Source: Pseudoxanthomonas suwonensis
GTDB taxonomy: Bacteria; Pseudomonadota; Gammaproteobacteria; Xanthomonadales; Xanthomonadaceae
Assembly: GCF_010093235.1 (NCBI RefSeq)
Contig: NZ_PDWP01000019.1
Span: 1 to 64,000 of the forward strand
DNA length: 64,000 bases
Direction of reading: 5' to 3'
Positions 5,459-37,537 of this stretch are shown here, in pieces. The position numbers and the translations under genes were made by a program. The stretch's first letter is position 1. Each line of letters opens with the position of its first letter. Below the pieces are notes generated by a model. That model did not search any database. It was not told where the DNA came from and was given only the letters and a program-made list of their open reading frames with translations.

Positions 5459-6163
<705 letters not shown>

Positions 6164-6323: not shown

Positions 6324-6363
6324 GTCCGGACAGGGCCGTCCGCAATCCCGCGGACGTCCGGAC
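6324..6363 (+). promoter_or_regulatory. Clustered GTCCGGAC palindromes: putative enhancer (UAS) for a sigma-54 activator
   Basis: Two identical 8-bp palindromes GTCCGGAC (6324-6331 and 6356-6363) are 32 bp apart, about three helical turns. Between them is a 7+7 inverted repeat (CGTCCGC, 6-nt spacer, GCGGACG) at 6337-6356. They lie roughly 83-122 bp upstream of the start point predicted for the sigma-54 promoter at 6419, the usual place for enhancer-binding-protein sites. They do not match the NtrC consensus seen at glnA. The activator is unknown. Confidence 0.5.
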
Positions 6364-6390
6364 ACCCGTGCGGACACCGGTCATCGCCAA

Positions 6391-6403
6391 TAAACCATTG
6401 ATT
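6391..6403 (-). promoter_or_regulatory. IHF-binding consensus between UAS and sigma-54 promoter
   Basis: On the minus strand AATCAATGGTTTA fits the IHF consensus WATCAANNNNTTR exactly. It sits in the only AT-rich stretch of the region and ends 17 bp before the -24 GG. It is also embedded in an inverted repeat, CCAATAAA (6387-6394) and TTTATTGG (6404-6411). Confidence 0.55.
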
Positions 6404-6418
6404 TTTATTGGATAAAAG

Positions 6419-6436
6419 TTGGCACGCGCCCTGCTT
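6419..6436 (+). promoter_or_regulatory. Sigma-54 (-24/-12) promoter of the repeat-protein gene
   Basis: TTGGCACGCGCCCTGCTT matches the RpoN consensus (TGGCACG, N4, TTGCW) with one mismatch. The invariant GG (6421-6422) and GC (6433-6434) have the required 10-nt spacing. Transcription would start near 6446, giving a leader of about 138 nt. The leader opens with a 7-bp hairpin (GAATCCC at 6453-6459 with GGGATTC at 6466-6472). The first 12 bases are identical to the glnA promoter at 37520-37537. Confidence 0.72.
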
Positions 6437-6583
6437 GGTAGAGGTTATCCAGGAATCCCAAACCCGGGATTCACTGAACAAACGCTGAAGCAAGGCGCAA
6501 AAACGAAAGGTTCTGGTTGCGCCAGCTGCTTAGGTGTTTTACTTTACTACCACACCACTGATCAACGACACCGGAGCACACTG

Positions 6584-6994
6584 ATGAACGCCAAGACCCT
6601 CGCCGCCTCCCTGGCCCTGTCCCTGGCCGCCACCTCCGCCTTCGCCGCCGAAACGCCGCGCGTCGATCACATCGTCACCCTTCCCGCCGTCGAAGTCCGC
6701 CCGGACGCCGCCCTGCAGGCCGAACTGGTCGCCCACCGGATCGTGAACCTGCCGGCCGTGGAAGTCCGTCCGACCGCCACGCAGAAGGCCGAGTACCTGG
6801 CCCTGCAGGCACTGCAGACCCGCGTCGTCGACCTGGCCACCGTCTACGTCCGCCCGACCGCCGAGCAGCTGGCCGAGCGCGCCGCCATCGCGGCCCGCGA
6901 GCAGGCCGAAGCCCTCGCCACCCAGGTCGGCACGACCCTGGCCGAGCAGGCCTCGCCGGCCCGCGTCGCCGGCTTCGCCAGCGCGGGCAACTGA
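6584..6994 (+). CDS. Small secreted protein with three LPxVxVRP repeats, unknown function
   Basis: I do not recognise a characterised family. The 136-aa product has a typical Sec signal (MNAKTLAASLALSLAATSAFAA). The mature protein carries three imperfect repeats about 28-36 residues apart, with cores IVTLPAVEVRPDA, IVNLPAVEVRPTA and VVDLATVYVRPTA. Each core is followed by an Ala/Gln/Glu-rich helix (LQAELVAHR, QKAEYLALQ, EQLAERAAI). A beta-hairpin plus helix unit in the periplasm or outside is plausible. The ATG at 6584 follows GGAG at good spacing; the frame is open upstream but without coding character. It is expressed from the sigma-54 promoter at 6419 and looks monocistronic. Confidence 0.8.
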   Translation: MNAKTLAASLALSLAATSAFAAETPRVDHIVTLPAVEVRPDAALQAELVAHRIVNLPAVEVRPTATQKAEYLALQALQTRVVDLATVYVRPTAEQLAERAAIAAREQAEALATQVGTTLAEQASPARVAGFASAGN

Positions 6995-7081: not shown

Positions 7082-7558
7082 ATGCCAGATCCCGTTTTCG
7101 ACGTCCTGCTGTACCAGCCCGAGATCCCGCCCAACACCGGCAACGTGATCCGGCTCTGCGCCAACACCGGCGCCCGCCTGCACCTGATCGAGCCGCTCGG
7201 CTTCGCCATGGAAGACCGGCAGCTGCGCCGCGCAGGCCTCGACTACCACGAGTACGCCAGCGTGCAGGTCCATCCGGACCTCGCCACCGCGCTGGAACGC
7301 ATCTCCCCGAAGCGCCTGTTCGCCCTCAGCACCCGCGGCCAGGTCCGCCACGACCAGCCCGCCTACGCCGACGGCGACGCTTTCCTGTTCGGCTGCGAGA
7401 CCCGCGGCCTGCCCGACGAGGTCCTGGAGTCGGTGCCGGAAGCACAGCGCCTGCGCCTGCCGATGCGACTGGGCAACCGCAGCCTCAACCTCTCCAATGC
7501 CGTGGCCGTGGTGGTTTTCGAAGCCTGGCGCCAGCACGGTTTCGCCGGCGGCCACTGA
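7082..7558 (+). CDS. trmL: tRNA (cytidine/uridine-34 2'-O)-methyltransferase TrmL
   Basis: This 158-aa SPOUT methyltransferase uses S-adenosylmethionine to methylate the ribose of wobble nucleotide 34 in tRNA-Leu isoacceptors. The trefoil-knot motifs are visible: EIPPNTGNVIRLC near the N-terminus, FGCETRGLP in the middle and NRSLNLSNAVAVVVFE near the C-terminus. The length equals that of the family. It stands alone on its strand after the repeat-protein gene. Confidence 0.95.
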   Translation: MPDPVFDVLLYQPEIPPNTGNVIRLCANTGARLHLIEPLGFAMEDRQLRRAGLDYHEYASVQVHPDLATALERISPKRLFALSTRGQVRHDQPAYADGDAFLFGCETRGLPDEVLESVPEAQRLRLPMRLGNRSLNLSNAVAVVVFEAWRQHGFAGGH

Positions 7559-30517: not shown

Positions 30518-31945
30518 TCAGCGCCGGCTGCGTCCGGGCCCGAGCTTGCGCGTCACCGTGTTGCGGCCCACGCCCAGCAGCGCCGCCGCCTCCACCCGCC
30601 GCCCGCCGGTGTGTTCCAGTGCGGCATTGAGCAGGGCACGGTCGAAGCGTTCGCGCGCCTCCGCATGCAGTTCGCGCGCGCCGGCGCGCAGGCAGTCCAG
30701 CGCCCACTGCCGCAGCTGCATGTCCCACTGCCCCGCCGGGGTCGCCGGGGCCGGGCTGGACGCCACCGGCGCCTGCAGCACCTGCAGGTCCTCCAGGGTG
30801 ATGGTCTCGCCGGGGGCCAGCGCGGCCAGGCGCCAGCACAGGTTCTGCAGCTCGCGCACGTTGCCCGGCCAGTCCATCGCCTGCAGCGCGGCCAGCGCGC
30901 CGGGCTCGAAGCGCTTGGCGCCGCCGCCCAGCTTGCGCGAGGCACGGTGCAGGAAGGTGGTGGCCAGCAGCGGGATGTCGCCGCGGCGCTCGCGCAGCGC
31001 CGGGATCTGCAGCCGCACCACGTTGAGCCGGTGCAGCAGGTCGGCGCGGAAGCGGCCCTGCTGCACCAGCGCCTCCAGGTCCTGGTGGGTGGCGGCGATC
31101 ACCCGCACGTCCACCCGGATCAGTTCGCGGCCACCGACGCGGAAGAACTCGCCCTCGGCCAGCACGCGCAGCAGGCGGGTCTGCAGCGAGGCCGGCATGT
31201 CGCCGATCTCGTCCAGGAACAGGGTGCCGCCGTTGGCCTGCTCGAAGCGGCCGACATGCCTCTTCTGGGCGCCGGTGAAGGCGCCGGCCTCGTGGCCGAA
31301 CAGTTCGCTCTCCAGCAGCTCGGCCGGGATCGCGGCGGTGTTGAGCGCCACGAACGGACCGTCGGCGCGCGGCGACTCGCGGTGCAGGGCGCTGGCGACC
31401 AGTTCCTTGCCGGTGCCGGTCTCGCCGGTGATCAGCACCGACAGCGGCGCCTGGGCCAGGCGGCCGATCGCGCGGAACAGCGCGCGCATGGCCGGGGTAT
31501 CGCCGATCAGCTCCTGGCTGGCGGCCTCCTCGGCGACGGCGGCCGGCACGGGCGCCGGCGGCGGCGTGCCCTCCGCCGGCAGCGCGCGCGCGGCCAGCGC
31601 CACCGCATCGTCCAGGTCGAACGGCTTGGACAGGAACTCGTGGGCGCCGCCGCGGAACGCGGAGGCGGTGCTGGCCACGTCGGTATAGGCGCTCATCACG
31701 ATCACCGGCAGCTGCGGGTGCGCGGACTTGAGCCGGTCCAGCAGCTTGAGGCCGTCGTCGCCGGGCATGCGCACGTCGGTGAACAGCAGGTCCGGTGCGC
31801 CGCGCACGCGCAGCGCCGCCAGCGCGCTGGCGGCGTTCTCGAAGCCGTCCACCTCGTAGCCCGCGTCGCGCAGCGCGGTGGCCAGCACGAAACGCACCGA
31901 GCGGTCGTCGTCCACCACCCAGACGCGGCGGCTGTCGGAATTCAT
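30518..31945 (-). CDS. ntrC: Nitrogen-regulation response regulator NtrC (sigma-54 activator)
   Basis: The product is 475 aa. The receiver domain carries the phospho-acceptor Asp57 (PDLLFTDVRMPG). The AAA+ domain has Walker A GETGTGKE, the sigma-54 contact GAFTGA and Walker B GTLFLDEIGD. The C-terminal Fis-type helix-turn-helix reads AAALLGVGRNTVTRK. Phosphorylated NtrC activates sigma-54 promoters such as that of glnA at 37520. The start overlaps the ntrB stop (ATGA), so the pair is coupled. Confidence 0.96.
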   Translation of the reverse strand: MNSDSRRVWVVDDDRSVRFVLATALRDAGYEVDGFENAASALAALRVRGAPDLLFTDVRMPGDDGLKLLDRLKSAHPQLPVIVMSAYTDVASTASAFRGGAHEFLSKPFDLDDAVALAARALPAEGTPPPAPVPAAVAEEAASQELIGDTPAMRALFRAIGRLAQAPLSVLITGETGTGKELVASALHRESPRADGPFVALNTAAIPAELLESELFGHEAGAFTGAQKRHVGRFEQANGGTLFLDEIGDMPASLQTRLLRVLAEGEFFRVGGRELIRVDVRVIAATHQDLEALVQQGRFRADLLHRLNVVRLQIPALRERRGDIPLLATTFLHRASRKLGGGAKRFEPGALAALQAMDWPGNVRELQNLCWRLAALAPGETITLEDLQVLQAPVASSPAPATPAGQWDMQLRQWALDCLRAGARELHAEARERFDRALLNAALEHTGGRRVEAAALLGVGRNTVTRKLGPGRSRR

Positions 31946-32991
31946 GCGGCGGTTTCTCCTTCGGACTCGGTCTGCGGCAGCAGGAGGGTGAAGACGGTGT
32001 GCCCCGGGCGGGAGCGGAAGGTCAGCGAGCCGCGGTGCTCGCGCGCGACCTGGTGGGCCAGGGCGAGCCCCAGGCCGGTGCCTTCGGCGCGACCGCTGAC
32101 CAGGGGCAGGAACAGGTGCTCGGCCAGTTCCTCGGGCACGCCGCGGCCGTCGTCGACGATTTCCACCCGCAGCGCGCGCGCGTGCATGTGTTCGCGGATG
32201 CTGAGCCCGTGCTCGAAACGGGTACGCAGGATGATGGTCGTGGCGCCGGCCTGCAGCGCGTTGTTGACCAGGTTCCACACCGCCTGGGCGAGGCGGTCGG
32301 CGTCGCCGGGGAATTCGGGGATGGACGGGTCGTAGTCGCGCTGCATGCGCACCGGCTTGCCGCCCTCGGCCTCGGCCAGGCGCAGCACCCGCTCGAGCAC
32401 GGCATGGATGTTCACCGGCGCGTGCGGACGCTGCGGCACCGGAGAAAGCAGCTGGTCCACGAGGGTGCTCAGGCGTTCGATCTCCGAGCCGATCAGCTCG
32501 ATCAGTTCGCGTTCGCCGGCATCGTCCTGGCGCGCGGCGGCGCGCCGCGACAGCAGCTGGGCCGCGCCCTTGAGCCCGGCCAGCGGATTGCGCAGCTCGT
32601 GGGCCAGGCCCTTGAGGGCGGCCTGCAGGGCTCCCGGCAGGGCCTGTGCCGGATCCGGCACGGCCAGGCCATCGCTGGGATGGGCCTCCAGCAGCCAGCC
32701 GCCGTCGACCCGGGTGAGCCAGCCATCGGCCATGTGCGGGGCCTCGCCTGGCACGCCCAGCGCGATCCGGTGCAGGCGCAGGACCTCGCGTTCGCCCTGC
32801 TCCAGGAACCGCGCCAGGGCATCGCCTTCCTGCTCCAGCGCGGCCAGCGGCTGGCCAACCAGTCGCCGGGGACCGATGCCCAGCCAGCGCGGGAAGGCGG
32901 CGTTGACCCCCACGATGCGGGCCTGGTCGTCGGCCCAGACCACGGGCGTGGCGAGGTGTTCGAGGGTCGGAGCGGCGGCGGTCATGGGCAT
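31942..32991 (-). CDS. ntrB: Nitrogen-regulation sensor kinase NtrB
   Basis: The product is 349 aa from the first ATG (347 from the next, at 32985). A PAS-like domain occupies about 10-105. The H-box has phospho-His131 (LAHELRNPLAGLKG), and the ATPase has N (NLVNNALQAGA), G1 (DDGRGVP) and G2 (GTGLGLALA) boxes. No membrane segment is present. It phosphorylates or dephosphorylates NtrC under control of P-II (GlnK at 35452). An NtrC palindrome sits directly at its start. Confidence 0.95.
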   Translation of the reverse strand: MPMTAAAPTLEHLATPVVWADDQARIVGVNAAFPRWLGIGPRRLVGQPLAALEQEGDALARFLEQGEREVLRLHRIALGVPGEAPHMADGWLTRVDGGWLLEAHPSDGLAVPDPAQALPGALQAALKGLAHELRNPLAGLKGAAQLLSRRAAARQDDAGERELIELIGSEIERLSTLVDQLLSPVPQRPHAPVNIHAVLERVLRLAEAEGGKPVRMQRDYDPSIPEFPGDADRLAQAVWNLVNNALQAGATTIILRTRFEHGLSIREHMHARALRVEIVDDGRGVPEELAEHLFLPLVSGRAEGTGLGLALAHQVAREHRGSLTFRSRPGHTVFTLLLPQTESEGETAA

Positions 32992-33009
32992 TGCACCAAT
33001 TTAGTGCAA
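32991..33009. promoter_or_regulatory. NtrC-binding palindrome at the start of ntrB
   Basis: TTGCACCAATTTAGTGCAA contains TGCAC, a 7-nt spacer and GTGCA, the spacing and bases of the enterobacterial NtrC site. It touches the first possible ATG of ntrB. As at E. coli glnLp, this position suits repression of ntrBC by NtrC itself. Confidence 0.72.
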
Positions 33010-33039
33010 GCCGGGTCCGCCGGCGATGCCCGGCCGCAT

Positions 33040-33786
33040 TCAGCGCCGTCGGCGGGCCTGCAGCACCAGCGAATGCAGGATCCGCAGGTCCTCCGCATCC
33101 AGGGTGTCCGCCTCGTCACCACGGTAGTGGCGGCGGGACGCGCGCACGGCAGCGGCAGGGGCGTGCCGCGGCCAGCCGATGGCCTGCATCGCCAGCCACG
33201 GGTCGAAGCCTGGCGGCGGCGCGCCGTCGGCCGGGTCCGGCCAAAGGCCAAAACCGGCTTCGGCCAGCTGCCGCCACGGGAACAGCGGACCCGGGTCGCG
33301 CTTGCGCGTGGGCGCCAGGTCGGCATGGGCGATGACCGCGTGGCGCGGGATGCCCAAGCGCGTGGCCAGGTCCTCGAGCAGGCGCAGCAGGGCCTCGATC
33401 TGCGCGGGCGGGAACGGTGCGGCTCCATCATTGTCCAGCTCGATCCCGATGGACGCGGAATTCAGCTCGCCCAGCGTGCCCCAGCTGCCGCCGCCGGCGT
33501 GCCAGGCCCGGCGTCCGTCCTCGACCAGCTGGTACAGGCTGCCGTCGGCTCCGACCAGGTAATGCGCGCTCACCGGCCCGCCGCTGTTGCCGGTGCGCAA
33601 CGTGCGCAGGCTCTGCGCGACCGAGTCCTGCTCGGTCGCATGCAGCACGACCAGCGAAGGTCGCCGCGCGTCGTGGTTGGGCGAGGGCGTCCACTGCGCC
33701 AGCGGACTGCGCTGCGGCGCGCTGGCGCAGGCCGCGAACAGGAGGCAGAGGACGGCGGGAAGGAGCGTGCGCAGGTCCGGGCTCAT
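33040..33786 (-). CDS. N-acetylmuramoyl-L-alanine amidase, lipoprotein (AmiD-like)
   Basis: The product is 248 aa. The signal ends in a lipobox (LFAAC), which places it at the outer membrane. An Amidase_2 domain follows with zinc ligands recognisable in LVVLHATEQD, AHAD (VIAHADLAPTRKRDPG) and a Trp-His pair (RRAWHAGGGSWG). It should cleave the lactyl-Ala bond of anhydro- or intact muropeptides. Context near ntrBC is probably fortuitous. Confidence 0.88.
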   Translation of the reverse strand: MSPDLRTLLPAVLCLLFAACASAPQRSPLAQWTPSPNHDARRPSLVVLHATEQDSVAQSLRTLRTGNSGGPVSAHYLVGADGSLYQLVEDGRRAWHAGGGSWGTLGELNSASIGIELDNDGAAPFPPAQIEALLRLLEDLATRLGIPRHAVIAHADLAPTRKRDPGPLFPWRQLAEAGFGLWPDPADGAPPPGFDPWLAMQAIGWPRHAPAAAVRASRRHYRGDEADTLDAEDLRILHSLVLQARRRR

Positions 33787-33917
33787 GCCCCATTGCACCG
33801 CCCCGCGACGGCGGCGGCAAGCACTGCCTCCGGCGCGCATGGGTGACGGGAAGGCGGAACACGGTTCACCTCGGCGCATTGCGGCGCATCGCACGGGTGG
33901 CGGTGCGCGGGAATCGG

Positions 33918-33943
33918 GCGGTGGCGCCGGCAGGCGCCACCGC
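33918..33943 (-). terminator. Hairpin downstream of amtB (distal)
   Basis: There is a perfect 11-bp stem (33918-33928 with 33933-33943) and a 4-nt loop. No T run follows. Confidence 0.5.
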
Positions 33944-33960
33944 GGTTGTTGCCGGAAACG

Positions 33961-33982
33961 CGCCGCGGCCGGGGCCGCGGCG
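33961..33982 (-). terminator. Hairpin downstream of amtB (proximal)
   Basis: A GC-only inverted repeat (CGCCGCGGC with GCCGCGGCG) lies 10 bp past the amtB stop and is followed on the minus strand by CGTTTCC. With the hairpin at 33918 it forms a double structure ending the glnK-amtB transcript. Confidence 0.5.
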
Positions 33983-33992
33983 CGGGTACCAC

Positions 33993-35432
33993 TCAGGCCT
34001 CGTAGGCGGATTCGCCGTGCGAGGTGATGTCCAGGCCGACGCGCTCGGCCTCTTCGCTGACGCGCAGGCCGAAGGCCAGCCTGGCGACCAGCAGGGCCAG
34101 CACGGTGACCACGGCGCACCAGACGATGGTGAAGCCGATGCTGACCACCTGGATCCAGACCTGGCTGCCGATGGAGAAGTCGGCGTCGCCGGTGCCGCCC
34201 AGCGACGGAGCGGTGAACACGCCGGTCAGGATCGCGCCGACGATGCCGCCGACGCCGTGCACGCCGAACACGTCGGCGGTGTCGTCGACCTTCAGCAGCT
34301 TCTTCAGGCCGGTGACGCCCCACACGCAGATGGCGCCTGCGGCCAGGCCGATGACGATCGCGCCCAGCGGGCCGACGGTGCCGCAGGCCGGGGTGATGCC
34401 GACCAGGCCGGCGACCGCGCCCGAGGCGGCGCCCAGCGCGGACGGCTTGCCCTTGCTGATGGCCTCGACCAGGGTCCAGCCCACGACCGCCGCCGAGGTG
34501 GCGAGGATGGTGTTGATGAAGGCCAGGGCGGCGGTGCCGTCGGCGGCGGCGGCCGAGCCGGCGTTGAAGCCGAACCAGCCGATCCACAGCAGGGCGGCGC
34601 CGATGAAGGTGAACGGCACGTTGTGCGGCTTCAGCGCGGTCTGGCCGAAGCCCAGGCGCTTGCCGACGAAGTAGGCGCCGACCAGGCCGGCCACGCCGGC
34701 GTTGATGTGCACCACCGTACCGCCGGCGAAGTCGATCGCGCCCAGCTCGCCCAGGTAGCCGCCGCCCCACACGATGTGGGCCATCGGCAGGTAGCTGAAG
34801 GTGAACCACAGCACGGAGAACAGCAGCACGGCCTTGAACTTGATGCGCTCGGCGAAGGCGCCGACGATCAGGGCGGTGGTGATGGCGGCGAAGGTCGACT
34901 GGAAGGCGACGAACAGCAGCTCGGGAATCGTGCCGCTGAGGGTCTCGACGGTAATGCCCTTCAGGAACGACTTCTCGGTGAACGAGCCGAAGAAGGCGTT
35001 GCCTTCGGTGAACACCGCGCTGTAGCCATAGAAGGCCCACAGCACGATCACGACCGAGGCCACGACCAGCACCTGGCTGAGCACCGACAGCACGTTCTTG
35101 CTGCGGACCAGGCCGCCGTAGAACAGGGCCAGGCCGGGCACGATCATCAGCAGCACCAGCAGGGTCGAGGTCAGCATCCAGGCGGTGTCGCCGGAATCAA
35201 GGACGGCCTCTTCCTCCGCGGCCGCTTCGGCGGCGGGCTCGGCGGCAGCGACGTCGGCCGCGGCTTCGGCCACGCCGGCGGTTTCGGCGACCATTTCGGT
35301 GGCGGGCGGCGTCGCGGCCTCCTGGGCCGCGGCGTTGCCGGCGAAGGCCAGGGTGGCCGTCGCGCTGACCAGCATCATCAGGCACACGGAATAGAACCGG
35401 GTCTTCCACCCGGCCAGGATTCGCGTCTTCAT
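33993..35432 (-). CDS. amtB: Ammonium transporter AmtB
   Basis: The product is 479 aa. A signal-like N-terminus (about 1-36) is followed by an unusual Ala/Glu-rich stretch (about 37-75) and then the 11-helix Amt core beginning TAWMLTSTLLVLLMIVPGLALFYGGLVR. The twin pore histidines are present in VVHINAGVAG and FGVHGVGGIVG. It is the partner of glnK, which lies 19 bp upstream in the same operon; GlnK blocks the channel when ammonium is plentiful. Confidence 0.96.
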   Translation of the reverse strand: MKTRILAGWKTRFYSVCLMMLVSATATLAFAGNAAAQEAATPPATEMVAETAGVAEAAADVAAAEPAAEAAAEEEAVLDSGDTAWMLTSTLLVLLMIVPGLALFYGGLVRSKNVLSVLSQVLVVASVVIVLWAFYGYSAVFTEGNAFFGSFTEKSFLKGITVETLSGTIPELLFVAFQSTFAAITTALIVGAFAERIKFKAVLLFSVLWFTFSYLPMAHIVWGGGYLGELGAIDFAGGTVVHINAGVAGLVGAYFVGKRLGFGQTALKPHNVPFTFIGAALLWIGWFGFNAGSAAAADGTAALAFINTILATSAAVVGWTLVEAISKGKPSALGAASGAVAGLVGITPACGTVGPLGAIVIGLAAGAICVWGVTGLKKLLKVDDTADVFGVHGVGGIVGAILTGVFTAPSLGGTGDADFSIGSQVWIQVVSIGFTIVWCAVVTVLALLVARLAFGLRVSEEAERVGLDITSHGESAYEA

Positions 35433-37519: not shown

Positions 37520-37537
37520 TAGCACGGCGCGTGCCAA
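37520..37537 (-). promoter_or_regulatory. Sigma-54 promoter of glnA
   Basis: On the minus strand TTGGCACGCGCCGTGCTA carries GG and GC with the required 10-nt spacing. Transcription would begin near 37510, 26 nt before the ATG. It is nearly the same as the promoter at 6419-6436. Confidence 0.78.

Follow-up and report, generated by a model that had tools for sequence, protein, structure and literature searches.

A conserved, predicted sigma-54 control region and a likely second promoter precede the gene for an exported XAC0231-like repeat protein in Pseudoxanthomonas

Introduction

Which regulators act on a small gene that lies behind an elaborate upstream region, and what might its product do? 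The locus was found in a 64,000-nucleotide stretch of Pseudoxanthomonas suwonensis DNA (hereafter, the window), within contig C10 of a 3.4-Mb draft genome (G000). The gene is flanked by those for a short-chain dehydrogenase (5465-6160) and a SpoU-type methylase (7082-7558), and the original prediction was that an enhancer-dependent sigma-54 promoter serves this one small secreted repeat protein.

6584..6994, + strand: open reading frame of the 136-aa exported repeat protein, ATG at 6584, a diverged XAC0231 relative
6573..6576, + strand: ribosome-binding site, sequence GGAG

A homologue of the protein was detected in 16 of 17 Pseudoxanthomonas-group genomes (hereafter, genus genomes) and in 20 of the 60 genomes searched, and within the family the NF052303 (XAC0231) model matched 71 of 247 genomes, spread over 13 of 54 genera; it matched none of the 14 controls. 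Upstream regions were compared across the 17 genus genomes and across 46 named loci, labelled Pseudoxanthomonas, Stenotrophomonas, Xanthomonas, some Lysobacteraceae assemblies, [Pseudomonas] boreopolis and one Bacillus subtilis record; the two samples have strains in common and are not independent. The locus in the Bacillus subtilis record (strain label SK7B5) is Stenotrophomonas-like, and the record is probably contaminated or mislabelled.

Results

The sigma-54 control region is conserved upstream of the repeat-protein gene

The promoter elements of the original prediction were recovered at their predicted places, including the GG-N10-GC spacing and the exact IHF consensus.

6419..6435, + strand: sigma-54 -24/-12 element TTGGCACGCGCCCTGCT, GG at 6421-6422, N10, GC at 6433-6434, predicted start near 6446
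6391..6403, - strand: IHF-type site reading YAANNNNTTGATW on the + strand, exact consensus, binding putative

The -24/-12 string alone is not rare, with 5 matches in the window (at most one mismatch) against 5.15 expected, and 17 matches in the whole genome against 13 for the reversed control. In combination with the CGGACGTCCG enhancer, it was found exactly once per genome in 15 of the 17 genus genomes. All 15 matches precede the repeat-protein gene at near-constant spacing, and the reversed control gave 0. The two genomes without a match are G005, in which the gene is present and the region lost, and G016, in which the gene is absent. Across the named loci, the -24/-12 element is kept in 45 of 46. 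The prediction depended on the elements recurring upstream of orthologues, and this they do; the sequence is of the TGGCAC-N5-TTGC type, and upstream activator sites are conserved together with it. Thus, it is conservation that confirms the control region as real, given that the -24/-12 string by itself is no rarer than chance.

IHF-type sites less than 60 bp from the -24 element were exact in 8 of 44 relatives' promoters and had at most one mismatch in 29 of 44, against shuffle means of 0.04 and 1.5, respectively. In P. broegbernensis (L151/L012), the sigma-54 element and the enhancer are lost upstream of the gene and a YtrA-type operator (see below) is kept.

The conserved enhancer unit is a cluster of half-sites

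The enhancer had been described as a pair of GTCCGGAC palindromes. Both copies (6324-6331 and 6356-6363) are present, 32 bp apart, with the inverted repeat GTCCGC/GCGGAC between them. As a conserved unit the pair was rejected, for GTCCGGAC occurs in the 110-bp upstream regions of just 27 of 44 relatives, whereas a CGGAC at -48 to -51 from the -24 T (about 49 bp) is found in 44 of 44. What is conserved is a cluster of GTCCG/CGGAC half-sites with this one at a fixed place.

6324-6328, 6338-6342 and 6356-6360, no strand assigned: GTCCG half-sites of the enhancer, within 6324..6375
6327-6331, 6351-6355, 6359-6363 and 6371-6375, no strand assigned: CGGAC half-sites of the enhancer, within 6324..6375

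The CGGAC at 6371-6375, which lies at -49 from the -24 T, is the half-site conserved in all promoters compared. Counted over the 110-bp upstream regions of 44 promoters, half-sites numbered 214, against 19.9 in 300 dinucleotide shuffles (sd 4.7, maximum 35); the count covered 44 of the 46 loci, leaving out L151 (no sigma-54 element) and L163 (too little upstream DNA). Among 16 evaluable sigma-54-like sites of the own genome, those before the repeat-protein gene and before an exporter operon have 7 half-sites each and the other 14 have 0-2, though most of these 14 may be chance strings. The scan that gave these 16 sites and the 27 of 44 for GTCCGGAC left out locus L074.

Separately, GTCCGGAC is over-represented in the window (7 copies against 1.96 expected, a count reached by 1 of 100 shuffles), and five of the seven copies fall outside the repeat-gene promoter.

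The regulator of an exporter operon is the likely activator

Searching the 17 genus genomes for GGACAC before a -24/-12 element returned two recurring loci, the repeat-protein gene (14 of 17) and an exporter operon (14 of 17). Four single matches were found elsewhere, one of them before a glnA-like gene (G006), and the reversed control gave 2 matches. In the window's genome, the only one in which its gene content was annotated, the operon (G000:C44:109140-116843) encodes a periplasmic adaptor, a MacB/DarD-like ATPase, two MacB/ADOP-type permeases, a REC-AAA+-Fis sigma-54 activator and a histidine kinase. Its first gene starts with MI[PR]DTSAQDR in all 14 genus genomes with the site, and in 13 of these the response-regulator gene follows 4.8-7.4 kb downstream of the site.

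We compared 18 operon stretches, from 14 genera of the family, one of another family and three genus members. In 15 of them, a sigma-54 element precedes the same kind of first gene, and these 15 promoters hold 80 half-sites against 8.8 in shuffles (sd 2.9, maximum 18), with CGGAC at -49 to -51 in 14 and an IHF-type site with at most one mismatch in 13. In G017, G022 and G037, the scan found no sigma-54 site ahead of the operon; the repeat gene is present in two of these three. Of the 15 operon genomes, eight gave no match to the repeat-protein family and two more (G018 and G033) gave only weak ones, in keeping with the half-sites being the regulator's own. The shared half-sites and spacing are direct observations, and, as they precede an operon that encodes exporter, regulator and kinase, they make its response regulator the likely activator of the repeat-protein promoter, binding and promoter activity being what we infer from them.

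The response-regulator gene was found in 14 of the 17 genus genomes, in part in G015, and not in G007, G010 and G016. This counts against the exporter-operon regulator in two cases, as G007 and G010 (both drafts) keep the repeat gene and its sigma-54 element. That a different bEBP of the genome (PilR-, FleQ- or NtrC-type) is the activator in general draws some further support from five stronger sigma-54-activator domains in the genome, to which these type names were given by reading, and from the TGTC contained in GTGTCCG. Pseudomonas aeruginosa PilR uses TGTC-containing sites. We nevertheless consider this alternative unlikely, because the same half-sites recur at the same spacing before the exporter-operon regulator's own operon across the family, and because their absence from the glnA-like promoter of the window argues against an NtrC-type activator. 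The original prediction that a bEBP other than NtrC is involved therefore probably holds, and NtrC was set aside as a candidate. The exporter-operon regulator remains our preferred activator. XibR, another candidate, was rejected as a different, orphan regulator according to the part of PMC5130282 that was available.

Co-occurrence of regulator and gene was tried as a test and was not informative: the regulator does not track the repeat gene, and most family genomes without the gene still carry it.

Several observations concern these genomes and regulators in their own right. The proximal half-site of G007 reads CGGACAG. In G010 (P. taiwanensis, L097/L220), the first gene of the exporter operon is apparently shortened near its start, the regulator gene was not found and the contig ends soon after; the third repeat of the XAC0231-like protein is degenerate there too. 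At 37521-37536 (- strand) and 30518-35432, the glnA-like gene of the window has a sigma-54 element with TGCACC/GGTGCA-like upstream sites and no GTCCG half-sites, and ntrBC- and amt-like genes (by reading) are located nearby. An AAA+ response regulator at G000:C55:113076-113540 has its GAFTGA loop seemingly replaced by GDDGDPAA and may not activate sigma-54.

A second, YtrA-covered promoter is likely in the leader

The control region had been read as a sigma-54 one. That promoter stands, but probably not as the sole one, since a second promoter-like sequence with a YtrA-type operator lies in the leader.

6517..6545, + strand: putative sigma-70-like promoter, TTGCGC at 6517-6522, 17 bp, TACTTT at 6540-6545, -10 weak
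6533..6556, + strand: YtrA-type operator GGTGTTTTACTTTACTACCACACC (GGTG-N16-CACC), covering the -10, in 44 of 46 loci
6474..6490, + strand: direct repeat CTGAAC-N5-CTGAAG

Across 45 aligned leaders, the TTG (6517-6519) and the -10 positions T 6540, A 6541 and T 6545 are invariant; the rows were picked for the -24/-12 element and a TAC.ACACCA string, so the columns of these two are conserved by construction. The invariant positions make a YtrA-covered sigma-70-like promoter likely. A 5' leader hairpin that had been proposed (about 6445-6465) found no backing in the same alignment, which has no conserved columns there.

The strict form of the operator occurs once in 15 of 17 genus genomes. The relaxed pattern (at most one mismatch) has exactly two occurrences in 16 of the 17 and a single one in G016, the genome without the repeat-protein gene; the reversed control gave 0. 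In G000, the second site lies before the genome's only PF00392 (GntR) gene, over a TTGACA/TATAGT-like pair, and by reading this gene forms an operon with those for an ABC ATPase and a permease. In the other genomes, the second site is near-identical in sequence, and the GntR gene beside it was seen in G000 only. GGTG-N16-CACC is cited in the accessible part of PMC6746942 (citing Zhou et al. 2017) as the motif of the X. citri YtrA-like regulator. In G000, the operators are observed as a pair, each over a promoter-like sequence, with a GntR gene of the same genome behind the same site type. With the operator lying over the -10, YtrA would repress the leader promoter, but activation is also conceivable: in X. 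campestris, gumB is activated by HpaR1, which belongs to the YtrA subfamily (PMC4730234, seen in part).

We weighed two other readings of the leader. The YtrA-controlled promoter could do most of the work, with the sigma-54 region minor or decaying, as might be suggested by G005, in which the sigma-54 region is lost and the operator, the TTG and the gene are kept. To this we give little credence, given the -24/-12 element in 45 of 46 loci and the fixed half-site in 44 of 44. The GGTG...CACC block could also act in RNA, as leader structure or an RNA-binding site, rather than as a DNA operator, because it lies within the leader of the sigma-54 transcript and GGTGT could pair with ACACC. This seems highly improbable: the other genomic copy precedes a GntR gene over a TTGACA/TATAGT-like pair, the form agrees with the DNA motif reported in PMC6746942 (as far as the available text goes), and an Rfam search for an RNA family in the leader gave two matches, both far under their gathering scores. 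We retain a DNA operator at a second promoter that would act beside the sigma-54 one.

Between the two promoters, the TGAA direct repeat is conserved in relatives, with the TGA...G.TGAA columns 91-100% conserved in the 45 leaders. An OmpR/PhoP-type reading of it was rejected: the pattern has one further match in the own genome and four in the reversed control, and the parts of the literature available on this reading held nothing to the point.

The product is a diverged XAC0231 homologue with TonB-box-like repeats

Residues 1-21 of the 136-aa protein are likely a Sec signal peptide, as judged by eye. The protein had been taken to belong to no known family, which does not hold: residues 1-121 align with NF052303 (XAC0231) at an E value of 1.5e-20 and 73.9 bits. 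This score is below the curated cut-off of 140, which an X. arboricola relative exceeds (217.7 bits), and by its sequence we class the protein as a diverged XAC0231 homologue rather than a family member by cut-off. No Pfam model matched at E ≤1, and the literature searched held nothing on XAC0231. Among solved structures, there was no sequence match and no fold match (best E 3.3). The structure model (mean pLDDT 74.1, pTM 0.34) has extended repeat cores with helices between them and no compact fold.

6674..6703, + strand: repeat 1 core VTLPAVEVRP, TonB-box-like, profile score 11.4
6743..6772, + strand: repeat 2 core VNLPAVEVRP, TonB-box-like, profile score 10.9
6827..6856, + strand: repeat 3 core VDLATVYVRP, TonB-box-like, weaker, profile score 6.9

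Two to four cores are found in each of 28 relatives examined. The genome encodes 29 plug-domain proteins, each with L-x-x-[VIL]-x-V shortly before the plug, and the TonB-box profile was built from the strings of these receptors, picked by the pattern L..[VIL].V. The likeness of the repeats was first noticed by eye and scored afterwards. With a profile of such pattern-picked strings and a likeness already noticed, the best core ranks 10 of 426 proteins (about 544 kb of genome, computed residue frequencies), at least two of the nine proteins above it being receptors of the window; by the same profile, the second and third best cores rank 1 of 426. Using approximate residue frequencies as background, all 28 family proteins tested (of 46) reach the lowest receptor score, and the first repeat of Xanthomonas relatives scores up to 19-20 against a receptor median of about 20. 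The repeats thus resemble TonB boxes, which suggests a periplasmic TonB-binding role; the likeness is a lead and not proof, because the R/Q-P that follows is not receptor-like.

Discussion

We propose that the repeat-protein gene is transcribed from two stacked promoters. At the sigma-54 promoter (start near 6446), the activator would be the NtrC-type response regulator of G000:C44:109140-116843, probably aided by IHF bending. Its gene lies with those for a kinase and a MacA/MacB(ADOP)-type exporter, and the regulator would bind GTCCG/CGGAC half-sites both at the repeat gene and before its own operon. At the sigma-70-like leader promoter (start near 6552), a YtrA-type GntR protein sitting over the -10 would block transcription. 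The repeat protein, which is exported to the periplasm, should then be produced on firing of the exporter's two-component system or on release of YtrA. Since each circuit is part of an ABC-transporter operon, envelope or antimicrobial stress is the likely setting. We put the probability of this reading as a whole, with its two promoters, its exporter-operon regulator and YtrA-type repressor and its stress setting, at roughly 0.7.

The signal and the function of the protein are likewise proposals from context. Nitrogen and motility, which had been among the suggested roles, are not supported: the partner promoter serves an operon for an exporter and a two-component system, and half-sites are absent from the glnA-like gene of the window. 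Envelope stress or export would be the better supported function, and a job in the cell envelope is likely. Within the searched portions of the literature on sigma-54 regulators with MacB-type transporters in Xanthomonas, nothing was found on the repeat-protein system, nor was it in those on TonB-box peptides.

A more specific idea, which we hold to be distinctly doubtful, is that the protein forms a soluble array of TonB-box-like strands in the periplasm, a natural decoy that would occupy TonB under envelope or antimicrobial stress and turn down the many TonB-dependent gates of the outer membrane (29 plug domains in the genome), made on demand via the exporter's sigma-54 two-component system and the YtrA repressor. 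A synthetic TonB-box pentapeptide reportedly inhibits TonB-dependent processes in vivo. Should the repeats indeed bind TonB, bacteria would have a new means of shutting the uptake gates of their outer membrane.

The promoter is of an ordinary kind; it is the double control that is unusual, and it is well conserved. By its cis-elements, one unlinked gene appears tied to two ABC-transporter circuits simultaneously. For a family known only by its locus name in the searched literature, we propose an activator, a repressor and a physiological setting, and with candidate regulators named, a cell-envelope function is directly testable at the bench.

Comparison with known systems

The predicted arrangement resembles NtrC-type control of an adjacent MacAB/ADOP-like exporter: the genes for a REC-AAA+-Fis regulator, a kinase and an exporter lie together, and their own promoter carries a half-site enhancer and a -24/-12 element. 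It differs from such systems in that the regulator here passes no curated NCBIfam cut-off among the matches listed (25 of 93) and apparently also controls an unlinked gene for a single secreted protein. Like XibR of X. campestris, it is an NtrC-family response regulator in a xanthomonad; as described in the part of PMC5130282 that was available, XibR is an orphan without a linked sensor and has GAFTGA, whereas our regulator is linked to a kinase and carries GAYTGA.

The repeats share with the TonB box of TonB-dependent receptors the L-x-x-V-x-V core and a first copy soon after the signal peptide. In contrast to these receptors, the repeat protein is soluble, with two to four copies and no receptor domain, and the core is followed by P (mostly R-P) rather than T-G/A.

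The second circuit is similar to the YtrA regulon (B. subtilis YtrA and the X. citri YtrA-like protein) in its small GntR gene, its operon with an ABC ATPase and a permease, and the 24-bp operator-like site over the -10 of the GntR gene's own predicted promoter. Unlike in that regulon, the pattern points here to one further target per genome, and this target also has a sigma-54 promoter.
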